37,391 bases of DNA, from the NCBI GenBank assembly GCA_022729575.1, contig DZAL01000039.1, positions 1-37,391 of the forward strand, given 5' to 3'. Within the stretch, counting starts at the first letter, position 1. Every line of letters starts with the position of its first letter. Under the pieces are notes generated by a model. It saw nothing but the letters and a program-made list of their open reading frames with translations, searched no databases and was not told the DNA's origin. Below, one piece after another: positions 3,701-36,170 of this stretch. The position numbers were made by a program, and so were the translations under genes. Origin of the DNA: Thiomargarita sp. Its GTDB lineage: Bacteria > Pseudomonadota > Gammaproteobacteria > Beggiatoales > Beggiatoaceae.

Positions 3701-4400
3701 GGTGATTAGTCAGCAATTGCGAGCGTTTGGTTATGAGGTAGCACGGTGGCAACCGGTAATAATGACTTTGGTGGAAAAGGTGTTGCACACGCCATTAGTG
3801 CCCAATCAACCAATGTTCACTTTATCACGAATTGCGAATGCGCAACGGTTGAATGAATTAGAGTTTTATTATCCGTTACCACAGTTAGTGACTACCGAGG
3901 GTTTGCAACAATGTTTTGAACCGGCGAAAAACCCCGGTTTGCTCCCCTCTCCCCCTGGGAGAGGGGCCGGGGGTGAGGGGAATGATTGGCCAGCACGTAT
4001 AGGACGGTTGGAATTTGCGCCGGTGCAAGGATTTATGAAGGGTTTTATTGATATGGTATTTGTGTGGGAAGGACGTTATTATTTAGTGGATTATAAGTCG
4101 AATTTTTTGGGGACGCGGACTCAAAATTATCATCATAGTCAGTTGGCCACCGTGATGACTCGCGAAGCCTATTTTTTACAGTATCATCTTTATGTGGTGG
4201 CGTTGCATCGTTATTTATCGTGGCGAGTACCAAATTATTGTTATGAGGAGCATTTTGGTGGCGTGTATTATTTATTTGTACGTGGAATGCAACCAGAGTG
4301 GGGGGCGAATTATGGAATTTATCGGGATTTACCGCGACCGGATTTGGTGGAAGGGTTGTCGCAGTATTTGGCGAAACCACCCCCAGCCCCTCCTTGGTAA
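729..4400 (+). CDS. recB: RecBCD exonuclease subunit beta (RecB), UvrD-type helicase and nuclease
   Basis: RecB is the 3'-5' helicase and nuclease subunit of RecBCD, which processes DNA double-strand ends. The 1223-residue protein shows the superfamily 1 motifs in order: Walker A ASAGTGKT (K30), DEFQDTD, GDPKQAIYSFRGAD, NWRS, HKSKGLEYP and LFYVAVTRAK. The C-terminal nuclease domain has GNFIHALFEH, GFIDMVF (D1108) and DYKS (D1121, K1123), so both activities look intact. ATG 729 is preferred over TTG 723; no clear Shine-Dalgarno is seen. Two repeat intrusions are odd. An R3 half is in frame at residues 1072-1084, just before the nuclease core. The last residues (KPPPAPPW) and the stop codon lie in an R2 repeat, replacing the native tail. 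recC and recD are not in the window. Confidence 0.96.
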   Translation: MNITPTQTFDPLNTSLLGISLIEASAGTGKTYHITTLFLRLLLERHPQLQRYLRVDEILVVTFTEAATEELRDRIRRRLREALVAFQQAGSEDKILTQLVQKYSDQADEAIFLLENALRGFDEAAIFTIHSFCRQMLGNNAFESGALFDIELVSDQTPLLREIVEDFWRQHFYGASPLFISYALANHYDKPAALLKTLNYGQYLGQPFLQIIPRESFPVTTVPEAAFQSAFQAAQTLWTSAAPTVIELVQSDNLNKAKYKLASIPQWGKELTDFFQGGLRSVVLPEHFKKFTRSELSNSVKKGKTPPAHEFFECCEQLFHCQQRLAQTFKQYLLALQVKLFEVAETGLTRKKSQRHIQSFDDLLINLYQALHGKTGGLLAQSIRNRYRAALIDEFQDTDPVQYEIFHTIYGLEQQTLFLIGDPKQAIYSFRGADIFTYIAANRQATQRHTLNANWRSEARLIEAVNHLFTRSPQPFWFKEITFLPAQPPSYRPLEQPQLTAQGTPIIQSPLQIWLVTRSQADRPPEKPITKEWAEQTLPLVVADEIVRLLTWGASGLVKIGDRPLAAGDIAILVRTHTQARIMQKALTRLRVPSVLYSRDSLFNSHEIVEIERVLLAIAATSNEGLVKAALTTDLLGYSGDELYQLMATEYTWQQRLYRFQQYQALWQAHGFIRMFRELLLEEQVQERLLSYPEGERRLTNVLHAAEILQQATLQNHLGINGLCQWLAQQRQPLGEVSEEQQLRLESDEKLVKIITIHKSKGLEYPIVFAPFVWNGHLYTRQTEPFTFHNEQEILTLDLGSAEQAQHCERALQEERAENLRLFYVAVTRAKHRCYLIWGAFNDADTSPLAHLLHPDLESVEKTSDEQLWRELKQLEAATLGTWAVSWLPIPAQYTPYQRPLEQTVSLTARPFLGQIDSTWRVSSFSSLLAQGEADRPDYDELTFRQAWLAPEELSQLENQSSIFSFPRGAQAGNFIHALFEHLDFTQVESAVISQQLRAFGYEVARWQPVIMTLVEKVLHTPLVPNQPMFTLSRIANAQRLNELEFYYPLPQLVTTEGLQQCFEPAKNPGLLPSPPGRGAGGEGNDWPARIGRLEFAPVQGFMKGFIDMVFVWEGRYYLVDYKSNFLGTRTQNYHHSQLATVMTREAYFLQYHLYVVALHRYLSWRVPNYCYEEHFGGVYYLFVRGMQPEWGANYGIYRDLPRPDLVEGLSQYLAKPPPAPPW
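3942..3979. repeat. R3 half-element inserted in frame in recB
   Basis: CTCCCCTCTCCC-CCT-GGGAGAGGGG followed by CCGGGGGTGAGGG matches the right half of R3 (compare 19413-19509). In the recB frame it reads LLPSPPGRGAGGEG without a stop or frameshift. The preceding CCCCGGTTTG resembles the R3 centre, so the insertion may begin near 3929. Confidence 0.85.
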
Positions 4401-4553
4401 GGAGGGGAGTGTAGCCCCTGAACCACCCCCAGCCCCTCCTTGGTAAGGAGGGGAGTGTAGCCCCTGAACCACCCCCAACCCCTCCTTGGTAAGGAGGGGA
4501 GTGAGGAGAGGGCTACACTCCCCTCCTTACCAAGGAGGGGTTGGGGGTGGTTG
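4375..4553. repeat. R2 repeat cluster: three direct units plus one inverted unit
   Basis: A 46-bp unit starting AACCACCCCCAGCCCCTCC is repeated at 4375 and 4421, and begins again at 4467. The right end (from about 4511) is the inverse, ending GGGGTTGGGGGTGGTT. Each unit is itself a hairpin (CCCCTCCTT-GGTA-AGGAGGGG). The first unit provides the recB stop codon. Lying between convergent recB and epmB, it could end transcription from both sides, though no T-tract is present. Confidence 0.9.
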
Positions 4554-25052: not shown

Positions 25053-25480
25053 GATTTGACACGATTTGACACGATTTGACAACTTTTCGAAAGTTGTCAA
25101 ATCTTGAACACTATCGAGATTTGACAACTTTTTGAAAGTTGTCAAATCTTGAGCACTATCGATTTGACACGATTTGACAACTTTTCGAAAGTTGTCAAAT
25201 CTTGAACACTATCGAGATTTGACAACTTTTTGAAAGTTGTCAAATCTTGAGCACTATCGATTTGACACGATTTGACAACTTTTCGAAAGTGGTCAAATCT
25301 TGAGCACTATCGAGATTTGACAACTGGTTGAAAGTTGTCAAATCTTAAGCACTATCGAGATTTGACAACTGGTCGAAAGTGGTCAAATCTTGAGCACTAT
25401 CGAGATTTGACAACTTGTCGAAAGTTGTCAAATCTTGAGCACTATCGAGATTTGACAGCTTGTTGAAAGTTGTCAAATCT
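25053..25480. repeat. Tandem array of nine R1 palindromes, 45/53-bp period
   Basis: Cores start at 25073, 25117, 25171, 25215, 25269, 25313, 25358, 25403 and 25448. Linkers are mostly TTGAGCACTATCGA or TTGAACACTATCGA. Spacing is 45 bases, or 53 where an extra GATTTGACAC precedes the core. A 98-bp dimer (25062-25159) is repeated exactly at 25160-25257. Later units have altered centres (CTGGTTG, CTGGTCG, CTTGTCG, CTTGTTG). The gene-free stretch 25045-25504 holds only this array. Confidence 0.95.
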
Positions 25481-25504
25481 CTTCGTTCAGAGAAAAATAA
25501 AACT

Positions 25505-31035: not shown

Positions 31036-31325
31036 AACCACCCCTAGCCCCTCCTTGGTAAGGAGGGGAACTAAGCCCCTCGTTCTTCATTCCTTACCAA
31101 AGAGAGGTTGGGGGTGGTTAAGTTTCTCCCCTCCTTACCAAGGAGGGGTTGGGGGTGGTTAAGTTCCTCCCCTCCTTACCAAGGAGGGGTTGGGGGTGGT
31201 TAAGTTCCTCCCCTCCTTACCAAGGAGGGGTTGGGGGTGGTTAAGTTCCTCCCCTCCTTACCAAAGAGAGGTTGGGGGTGGTTAAGTTTCTCCCCTCCTT
31301 ACCAAGGAGGGGTTGGGGGTGGTTG
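31036..31325. repeat. R2 tandem array, about six units of 41 bp
   Basis: A first inverted R2 half (AACCACCCCTAGCCCCTCC) is followed by six units ending GGTTGGGGGTGGTT and spaced 41 bases. Units 1 and 5 share the variant AAAGAGAGG and are each followed by AAGTTTCTCC, while the units between have AAGTTCCTCC. This points to duplication of a four-unit block. The gene-free stretch 31000-31349 contains only this array. Confidence 0.93.
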
Positions 31326-31349
31326 AAGAATTAGGGTTTGCCGATGGCA

Positions 31350-34300
31350 CTAAGATTTGACAACTTTCGACAAGTTGTCAAATCTAAAATCTCTAAACTC
31401 TCTGGTCAAAAGAGTATATATAGTTGGAATCACAAATAAAGTTAAAAAGGTGCCTAGTAGCAGGCCACCCACAATGACCCAACCAATGGAGCGACGACTT
31501 TCGGCACCTGCTCCGGTAGACATCGCTAAGGGAACGGCACCCAAAATAGTAGAAGCAGTGGTCATCAGAATCGGACGTAAACGTAAAACCGCGGCTTCTA
31601 TCACCGCTTCTCGTAAACGCATTCCACGCTCTTGCAATTGATTGGCAAATTCCACAATCAAAATGCCATGTCTGGTGATTAAGCCTACTAACATGACCAA
31701 ACCAATTTGACTATAAACGTTTAAAGTGTCTCCGGTTAAAAATAATGCTAATAAAGCACCGGTCATCGCCAACGGTACAGTGAACATAATTATTAACGGG
31801 CTGATAAAACTTTCAAATTGCGCCGCGAGCACGAGGTAAATAAATACCAAGGACAAAATGAAAGTGACTAATAACGTTTCACTAGATTCTCGAAATTCAC
31901 GAGATTGACCATCCAAAGCGGTTTGGGCCGTTTGGGTAAGCACCGCTTTGGCCAAATGGTCCATAAATTCCAAAACTTGTCCCAGGGTAAAACCGGGCGT
32001 GACATTCGCGCTCAGGGTGGTAGCACGCAGTTTATTAAAGCGATTTAGCTCCTTCGGGGCCACGGTTTCTTGCACTTTGATTAGATTAGACAATTGAATT
32101 AAATTGCCTGCTTTATTACGTACAAAAATCGCGGTCAGGTCTGCTGGCTTAGTACGGTCTCGGTCTTTTAACTTCACAATCACCTCATACTGTTTGCCTT
32201 CACGTTTAAAACGTGTCACCTGCCTGCCACCTAACAAGGTTTCTAAAGTTTTACCAATGTCTTCTACTTCTACTCCGACATCGGCTACTTTGTCACGATC
32301 TATGCTAACTTTCAACTGTGGTTTGTTTAATTTTAAATCGCTGTCAGGATTTTGCAAACCAGGATATTCACGCATTTTAACCAGCATTTGGTCGCTCAGG
32401 CGTTGCAACTCTTGGTAAGAATCACCTTGGACCACAAATTGTACCGGGGTGTTGCGGAAACTTTGTCCTAGTGAGGGTGGATTAATGGCAAACGCCAGCA
32501 CGCCAGGTAAACTCAGTAACTGCGGCATCAACTGCCCGGCGATTTGTTGCTGACTACGGATCCGTTGCTCCCACGGTTTTAGACGCACAAAGGATAATGC
32601 TGAATTCACCGGATTAGGTCGCTCCAACCCTGGAGCTACCACCATGAAATAATTTTCGACTTCAGGGACTTGGGCATAAATTTTTTCGATTTGTCGCGCA
32701 TAACTGTCAGTATAAGCGAGGGTAGCCCCTTCAGGAGCACTGATAATGCCAATAATATTGCCGCGATCTTCCAACGGGGCCAATTCTGATTTAATGAGTG
32801 GAAATTGTACATTTTTACCAGCAAAACTAGCCAAATAATTTTCCCAGGGCGGGGATAAACTACCTTTAGGTAAAATAAAATACACACCGCCGGCCGCAGT
32901 GGCTAGAAACATGAGGAGGATGAACCAACGGACGTGCAAAGTGCCTCGTAAAATTAAACGATAACTGTCATTGAGGAGATTAAAAAATTTCTCGGTCAAA
33001 TTATAAAACAGGCCGTGTTGTTCATGCGCGACTAAAAATTTAGAACACATCATGGGAGTTAGCGTGAGTGCGACAAAGCCGGAGACCACTACGGCGGCAG
33101 CCACGGTCAAAGCAAATTCGGTAAATAATCGTCCCGTATTACCGGTCATAAAAGCGAGTGGGACAAAGACCGCGGCTAAGGTGATGGTCATCGCGACCAC
33201 GGCAAAGCCAATTTCTTGACTGCCGGTTAAAGCCGCTTCCATCGGTGAGGCACCTTTTTCCAGGTGACGATGGATATTTTCTAGCATGACAATGGCATCA
33301 TCCACGACGATACCAATGGCTAAAACTAGCCCTAACAGCGTTAAAATGTTGATCGAAAAATTGAGTGCATGGAGAAAAATAAAGGCACCAATTAATGAGA
33401 CTGGAATGGTGACAAAAGGAATGAAGGTAACACGAATTGACCGTAGAAACAAGAAAATCACCAGCACGACCAAAATAAAAGCCTCGAACATGGCTTTATA
33501 GACCGCTTCAATCGATTTTTCTACAAAGACGGCGGTATCAAACACGACTTTCATTTCCATTCCTGGCAGTAGTTTGACTTTAGGAATTTGTGCTCGCACG
33601 GCTTTGGCGACGGATAAAGTATTAGCAGTCGATTGTTTGACGACACCTAATCCTACCGCGGGGTCTCCATTCACTCGAAGTATACTACGCTCATCTTCAG
33701 GTCCTATTTCAGCCTGGCCAACATCGGATAACCGAATGGGATAACCATTGATTTCTTTAATAATTAGATGGTTAAATTCGTCAGTTTCTCGCAAGTCGGT
33801 GACGGTCAACACGGTAAATTCACGTTGCAAACTTTCAATACGACCAGAAGGCACTTCCACATTTTGACGACGTAGTGCCGTTTCGACATCTTGAGGAGTC
33901 AATTGATAAGCCGCTAACCGGTCACGATCTAGCCAAATGCGCATAGCATAGCGACGTTGTCCACCAATAATAACGCTGGCGACCCCGGTTAAGACTTGAA
34001 ATCGTGGAATCACAAAACGGTCGGCATAATCGGTGATTTCTAAGGCATTATGATGATCACTAGACAGTTTTAGCCAAATAATAGCTTGAGCATCGGCTTC
34101 AATTTTAGCGATCACGGGATCATCCGCTTCTTCTGGTAAGCGTGAGCGTACTCGTGCCACTCGGTCGCGAACATCATTGGCGGCATCATCAACATCCCGC
34201 TCTAAGGTAAATTCTACCGAAATTTGACTGACTTGCTCACGACTGACGGATTTAATGGTTTTGATACCTTCTACCCCGGATAATGAATCCTCTAGCGGTT

Positions 34301-34599: not shown

Positions 34600-34633
34600 A
34601 ACCTTGAAGGTCTAAAACCAGACCTTCAAGGTT
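34600..34633. repeat. Palindrome AACCTTGAAGGTCT in the divergent gap
   Basis: AACCTTGAAGGTCT pairs fully with AGACCTTCAAGGTT around AAAACC: a 14-bp stem. A single R4 end (TTCCTTAACTTAATGGCAATG, about 34650-34670) follows, so this may be the inside of a half-deleted R4 element. It lies between divergent pump and protease genes. Confidence 0.7.
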
Positions 34634-34736
34634 AAAACCTGACCGGGGATTCCTTAACTTAATGGCAATGCTTGTATTCCATCCAAAATTCTGTCATACT
34701 ATATAGTTCATTCCAATCAAATAAATTTTTGACTCT

Positions 34737-35934: not shown

Positions 35935-36004
35935 ATAGCCGTTGGAGTCCGGAATTTATTCCGTTCTTCATAGCCGTTGGAGTCCGGAATTTATTCCGTT
36001 CTTC
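35935..36004. repeat. R5 35-bp exact tandem repeat
   Basis: The 35-base unit starting ATAGCCGTTGGAGTCC is present twice (35935-35969, 35970-36004). It carries the R5 head GTTGGAGTCC followed by the small palindrome GGAATTTATTCC. Confidence 0.9.
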
Positions 36005-36170
36005 TCGTTCCCACGCCAGCGCGTCAATGCCATTAAGTTAATGTAGGGTGGATTAAGCGAAGCGTATCCACCTGAGTTTCGACCGTGGTGGATACGCTTC
36101 GCTTAATCCACCCTACATTAGCTGGATATTCCTTAACTTAATGGCATTGACGCCAGCGCGTGGAAACGAG
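36004..36170. repeat. Triple-nested palindromes: R6 in R4 in R7, with a 12-bp direct duplication
   Basis: The outer R7 palindrome starts CTCGTTCCCACGC (36004) and ends GTGGAAACGAG (36170). An R4 element (36025-36149; ends CAATGCCATTAAGTTAA and TTAACTTAATGGCATTG) splits it. ACGCCAGCGCGT occurs on both sides, at 36013-36024 and 36150-36161. Inside R4, an R6 palindrome has two perfect 31-bp arms (36042-36072, 36087-36117). Confidence 0.92.

Follow-up and report, generated by a model that had tools for sequence, protein, structure and literature searches.

A miniature element with IS4-type ends at the axis of a dispersed palindrome in a Thiomargarita genome

How does one palindromic repeat come to lie inside another, with a third palindrome inside it? 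The question is posed by a 37,391-bp stretch of a Thiomargarita sp. genome (contig DZAL01000039.1 of assembly GCA_022729575.1; "the window" below is the whole of this stretch), near one end of which a palindrome, R7, is interrupted by a repeat, R4, that in turn holds a palindrome, R6. The original prediction, made from the letters alone, read the 12-bp repeat on both sides of R4 as a target-site duplication, concluded that R4 had moved into an older R7, and pointed to the IS4 group of transposases. The answer proposed here, to which we assign a probability of about 0.93, is that R4 is a miniature inverted-repeat element (MITE) of a resident IS4-subgroup insertion sequence (IS) that favours palindromic targets, and that it was moved in trans into an existing R7.

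The locus reads CTCGTTCCC-ACGCCAGCGCGT, then R4 (125 bp; 36025-36149), then ACGCCAGCGCGT-GGAAACGAG. The two copies of ACGCCAGCGCGT, in direct orientation on the forward strand at 36013-36024 and 36150-36161 (spacing 137), are identical at 12 of 12 positions and directly abut R4 on both sides, exactly as had been claimed; they form the inner parts of the two halves of R7 (CTCGTTCCCACGC..GCGTGGAAACGAG, 36004-36170), the left half, CTCGTTCCCACGCCAGCGCGT, at 36004-36024 and the right, ACGCCAGCGCGTGGAAACGAG, at 36150-36170. R4 lies exactly at the centre of R7, whose axis runs through the 12-bp duplication. Taking away R4 and one copy of ACGCCAGCGCGT leaves TCGTTCCCACGCCAGCGCGTGGAAACGA, the near-perfect palindrome that had been anticipated, only one base off the intact R7 at C166:32862-32889. 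The latter is the same palindrome with a single, undoubled ACGCCAGCGCGT. Elsewhere in the genome there are 32 intact R7 palindromes (exact copies), and the doubled core that had been named in advance as contrary evidence was looked for in all of them and found in none (0/32). The ACGCCAGCGCGT repeat is a target-site duplication, and R4 entered an R7 that was already in place. An empty orthologous site was also sought in the same-genus genome G020, and none was found: the flank of the window matches G020 only through R4 itself and neighbouring repeats and is not alignable, and the mazG orthologue is just 69% identical. (A 35-bp palindromic unit, ATAGCCGTTGGAGTCCGGAATTTATTCCGTTCTTC, stands directly next to R7 at 35935-36004 as two exact tandem copies; it is widely repeated across the genome, frequently in tandem.)

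R4 is bounded by perfect 17-bp inverted repeats: CAATGCCATTAAGTTAA on the forward strand at 36025-36041, and its reverse complement TTAACTTAATGGCATTG at 36133-36149 (reverse strand), which continues inwards with GGAAT. The R6 palindrome that it encloses had been credited with perfect 31-bp arms; the palindrome is there, and its arms are slightly longer, 37 bp with one mismatch (36036-36072 and 36087-36123), of which 34 bp are uninterrupted (36039-36072, forward; 36087-36120, reverse). The entire element folds as one long hairpin (-54.1 kcal/mol, z -17.7); a search of Rfam returned only sub-threshold eukaryotic hairpin families, which were set aside as chance matches to the long stem. R4 holds no gene, and its 125 bp leave no space for that of a transposase. 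The broader statement that these palindromes are mobile accordingly has to be divided: it stands for R4 and for R6, which rides inside it; it does not extend to R7, which is the target and for whose own movement no evidence was found. The statement holds only for palindromes carried inside R4 ends.

Do other members of the family bear the same mark? The sample, drawn from about 1 Mb of partly overlapping genome DNA, comprises 75 distinct elements with two arms and a length below 600 bp. Of these, 33 are flanked by exact duplications of 11-13 bp (24 of 12 bp, 8 of 11 bp and 1 of 13 bp) and 16 by near-exact duplications of 10-13 bp, making 49 of 75, against a mean of 3.9 and a maximum of 10 when the right flanks are shuffled among elements. 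The duplicated sequence varies from insertion to insertion (AGGCTTTAGCCG, ACGCCAGCGCGT, ACGCATAACCAC, CACCCCTAGCCC and many more), with the element ends constant; repeats borne by the element itself could not vary in this way, and these are therefore target-site duplications. The 26 elements without a recognizable duplication are attributed to decay and to recombination between copies; several of them (e.g., L012 and L023) have two flanks drawn from different repeat families, as is expected of such recombination. The same exercise in G020 makes a weak replicate: exact 12-bp duplications flank 8 of 22 elements, 7 of the 8 are AGGCTTTAGCCG, and the shuffled control is correspondingly high (mean 7.1, maximum 13). 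An empty paralogue can be found for 17 of 33 sites, compared with 74 of 250 random ORF-free stretches, the excess being only modest because the genome is so full of repeats.

The family is a large one. With up to 3 mismatches allowed, the window has 7 copies of the R4 arm, where 0.16 are expected; with up to 2, the whole genome (6.57 Mb) has 420 + 422 on its two strands, and the reversed control gives 1 + 1. Of 43 genomes of the same family, 35 contain an 18-base version of the arm at up to 1 mismatch, and none matches its control; the highest counts are those of G038 (430 + 443) and of the present genome (349 + 363), followed by G020 (232 + 258) and G028 (249 + 222). The window itself contains a second member, of the 134-bp class, at 424-557, with a decayed left end (CACGGCC...) and an imperfect flanking duplication (CCGTGTAAGGGT / CCGTGTAGGGT), as well as a truncated element of the 101-bp class at 34600-34670 (the left limit is approximate), of which only the right end, CATTGCCATTAAGTTAA on the reverse strand, is left. 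Element lengths lie mainly between 100 and 135 bp, and the size classes have their ends in common and differ in their bodies: the 134- and 123-bp classes contain the GTTGGAGTCC palindrome in two arrangements, the body of the 125-bp class is R6, and that of the 100-101-bp class is the ACCTTGAAGGTC palindrome. In 0.84 Mb, 4 of the 7 R6 sites have no arm at all, nor do 14 of the 53 sites of the GTTGGAGTCC palindrome, so that both exist outside R4 ends too; each of the 14 places of the ACCTTGAAGGTC palindrome has at least one arm. The armless bodies may have been captured by ends elsewhere, or may be remnants left after the ends decayed. (A technical note: many contigs of this genome, C31, C51, C62, C66, C77, C98, C107 and others, start 30-60 bp from an R4 arm; these elements are apparently a main cause of assembly breaks, and counts of intact elements are consequently probably too low.)

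What directs an element to the very centre of a palindrome? When 15 distinct 12-bp duplications are read in both orientations, G, C and T stand at positions 3-5 in 24, 23 and 20 of 30, respectively, with the mirror image at positions 8-10. Measured about the midpoint of the site, complementarity amounts to 2.63 of 6 pairs, versus about 1.0-1.85 at all other offsets, and 20 of 30 12-bp duplications have at least 4 of their 6 pairs symmetric (6 of 15 when each duplication sequence is counted once), versus 10 of 250 random ORF-free sites. A symmetric target preference is expected where a transposase attacks both strands alike. It is a preference and not a rule, many duplications being non-palindromic: of the 49, 14 are AGGCTTTAGCCG, 2 more are one base off it, 4 are R7-like, and the rest are scattered over other sequences. 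Insertion at a palindrome axis is seen in R7 and in the GGCTTTAGCC repeat; some other targets are not palindromes. What is particular to the R4 family is that dispersed palindromes meet its symmetric preference at their axes. Two further kinds of repeat should be mentioned here. At 31050-31365 and 4375-4512 the window has tandem arrays whose units, of 41 and 46 bp, are built on CTCCCCTCCTTACCAAGGAGGGG; sequences related to them are R4 insertion targets in other parts of the genome. Another dispersed palindrome, GATTTGACAACTTTTCGAAAGTTGTCAAATC, is found at 23 places between 9339 and 37136 of the window, with a tandem array of units of about 45 bp at 25062-25490; its family is distinct from R4 and apparently lacks R4 ends.

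A geneless element has to borrow its enzyme, and a candidate lender is at hand. A search of the genome with the Pfam DDE_Tnp_1 model yields 16 places, at only two of which, on contigs C205 and C365, is an R4-type repeat positioned relative to the gene as the end of an IS would be; the remaining genes were rejected, the arms near them belonging to MITE pairs or small fragments rather than to gene ends. C205 supplies the right end: 32 bp separate the end of its transposase gene from the outer edge of the repeat, CAATGCCATTAAGTTAAGCC (opposite strand). C365 supplies the left end: its repeat, CACTGCCATTAAGTTAAGCC, begins 200 bp upstream of the start codon, and directly outside it stands CGGCTAAAGCCT, the commonest MITE target. 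Both contigs end inside the gene. The two fragments share a 213-bp overlap that is 88% identical, and so represent two different IS copies; the implied IS length, about 1552 bp, is joined from these contig-end fragments of different copies. No uninterrupted autonomous copy was found in this genome and, with both fragments at contig ends, the resident IS's own duplication is not readable. Each fragment finds its best match in the NCBIfam family transpos_IS4_1 (E = 6e-27 and 3e-32), at scores (94.6 and 112.1 bits) just below the cut-off of 115 for the full-length protein. The catalytic spacing is D-80-D-108-E, and the motif YHLRWGVETLYGVVK reads Y-2-R-3-E-6-K; DDE spacing and a YREK motif of this kind characterize the IS4 family, whose IS4 subgroup has ends of the form -AATR--------WTW, duplications of 10-13 bp and a size of 1400-1650 bp (De Palmenaer et al. 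2008, PMC2266710). The R4-type end CAATGCCATTAAGTTAAG fits that signature at every listed position, the variant beginning CACTG misfitting at position 3 only, and the MITE duplications of 11-13 bp fall inside the subgroup's range. E. coli IS4 serves as a yardstick: its ends, which are related, are TAATGCCAGTCAGTTAAG / TAATGCCGATCAGTTAAG (TAATGCC....AGTTAAG) and its 12-bp duplication is ATCTTGGTTCTG.

Complete copies are to be found elsewhere. Relatives of the transposase in other genomes, in records labelled Bacteroidota, Gammaproteobacteria, Spirochaetales and others, lie between nearly the same ends (CAATG[C/T]CATTAAGTTAAG and variants), and the complete ones have duplications of 10-11 bp where both ends are readable; several of their targets are hairpins, e.g. 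GCTCTCTTCGGAGAGC (L152) and GGCTTGTCTGGGGACAAGCC (L141). R4-type ends also stand beside a related transposase on contigs of Candidatus Thiomargarita nelsonii (loci L126 and L146). One relative (L189, in genome G003 of the same family) repeats the event in the window with a full-length element: 1655 bp, with a transposase gene, R4-type ends and an 11-bp duplication, ATGCGGCGCAT, its empty site being CTCGTTCCC-ATGCGGCGCAT-GGGAACGAG, that is, an R7 palindrome split at its axis. Three further transposase-bearing elements in the same family of genomes have left flanks just outside the end, CACGCGCCAGCGT (L174), CACGCTCCAGCGT (L166) and CACGCTTCTGCGT (L170), in the same register as in the window. 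The IS4-group lead of the original prediction thus holds, a transposase with matching ends being present in the genome itself and in relatives; the full-length IS that it proposed to look for exists in other genomes, while this one has yielded only the two contig-end fragments. (Three asides on the relatives: the L189 element seems to enclose a second R4-type end pair, at 954-2381, i.e., a nested element. The duplications of L122-L152 are of 10 bp, some of 11 bp, versus mostly 12 bp in the present genome; duplication length may have shifted within the subgroup. A 3-kb contig labelled Actinomycetota, PWSB01000160.1 (L120), has several R4-type ends beside R7-type half palindromes and a transposase that is 52% identical, and could be a sulfur-bacterium contig that was misbinned.)

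The events at the window would then run as follows. R4 would be a non-autonomous MITE, with terminal inverted repeats of 17-19 bp that are the same as those of the resident IS4-subgroup IS, and transposase supplied in trans would excise and insert it. The enzyme is very probably, judging by sequence, an ordinary IS4-type transposase; by analogy with the IS4 family its chemistry would be cut-and-paste, and R4 is presumably still able to move. Strand transfer would take place at two target positions separated by 12 bp (11-13), and gap repair would duplicate the stretch between them. The sites preferred are short and symmetric, about N-N-G-C-T-N-N-A-G-C-N-N; R7 (ACGC-NNNN-GCGT), the GGCTTTAGCC repeat and similar palindromic repeats conform to this at their centres, so that elements land on the axis and split the palindrome. 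In the window, R4, with R6 already as its body, would have been inserted into a pre-existing R7.

Might the enzyme be a different one? R4 could be a MITE that owes its movement to some other resident DDE transposase, with the IS4-type gene as no more than a distant relative. The 16 DDE_Tnp_1 matches leave room for such an enzyme, and G020, with its approximately 490 arms, yields no detectable match to the C205/C365 transposase, so that the driver in that genome must be lost, unassembled or different. This alternative is nonetheless improbable: C205 and C365 are the sole loci among those matches at which an R4-type repeat forms an IS end, and the complete relatives of their transposase in other genomes bear the same ends.

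Two other alternatives are less probable still. The 12-bp repeat could be part of an R7-R4-R7 composite, copied as a block or generated by recombination between two R7 copies; R7 is itself repeated, and the hybrid flanks of some elements indicate that recombination between copies probably does occur. Yet elsewhere the 125-bp class occupies unrelated targets, where the duplications of 12-13 bp are different ones (AGGCTTTAGCCG, ACGCATAACCACC), and R7 is therefore not part of the mobile unit, which makes this origin very unlikely. The least credible of the three is that the structure is a product of hairpin-mediated replication or of faulty assembly. The great stability of the R4 hairpin and the many contigs that break close to an arm lend it some colour. 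Against it, the copies number in the hundreds and the genome is rated 99.96% complete, the ends recur in 35 of the 43 family genomes, and the duplication length is constant.

The MITE moved by an IS4-subgroup transposase has precedents, each of them partial. With the IS4 subgroup at large R4 shares the end signature and the 10-13 bp duplications, and its resident transposase the YREK motif; R4 differs in being geneless, having only the ends in common, and the resident transposase is a distant relative. Non-autonomous (cassette) derivatives of IS231 are known in Bacillus cereus. IS231 itself, an IS4-family member with duplications of 10-12 bp and target specificity (PMC2266710), has ends that begin CAT, unlike the CAATG or CACTG of R4. 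Some IS insert at the symmetry axis of dispersed REP palindromes (Tobes and Pareja 2006, PMC1525189), ISRm22, which is assigned to the IS4 family, being an example (PMC1525189). There too the axis is hit, and removing the insert together with one repeat restores the palindrome; those inserts, however, are full-length IS with duplications of 2-6 bp or none, whereas R4-family inserts are mostly MITEs with duplications of 11-13 bp that use several palindrome families. REP-targeting IS have all or nearly all of their copies in one repeat family, while in the R4 family even AGGCTTTAGCCG takes just 14 of 49. The accessible text of the report on Candidatus Thiomargarita nelsonii tells of a giant sulfur bacterium with abundant MITEs and palindromic repeats, including a hupL MITE and a TATAG-flanked, IS630-like MITE in a dsrA intron (PMC4853749); the MITEs described in that text are, unlike R4, not IS4-type elements with 12-bp duplications. 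A search of papers open without subscription gave no match to the R4 arm, or to R7 strings in a relevant context, and the R4 MITE family appears to be undescribed in them. Both the kind of element and the kind of event are already known: R4 is a new family of a known type.

For the genome at hand, IS4-type ends account for several hundred repeats, with similar ones across the family; a likely enzyme can be named, and the nesting of palindromes is explained. Since each insertion is younger than the palindrome that hosts it, the nests also provide a tool for relative dating. Insertion at the axis, known for several IS, is now extended to an IS4-subgroup element and its miniature derivatives. One can speculate further, and tentatively, that IS4-type ends are a general vehicle, which encloses various palindromes (R6, the GTTGGAGTCC palindrome) and ferries them into the centres of others; the odds seem to us to be somewhat against it, but if it is true, it helps to explain the nested palindrome landscapes of the large sulfur bacteria.
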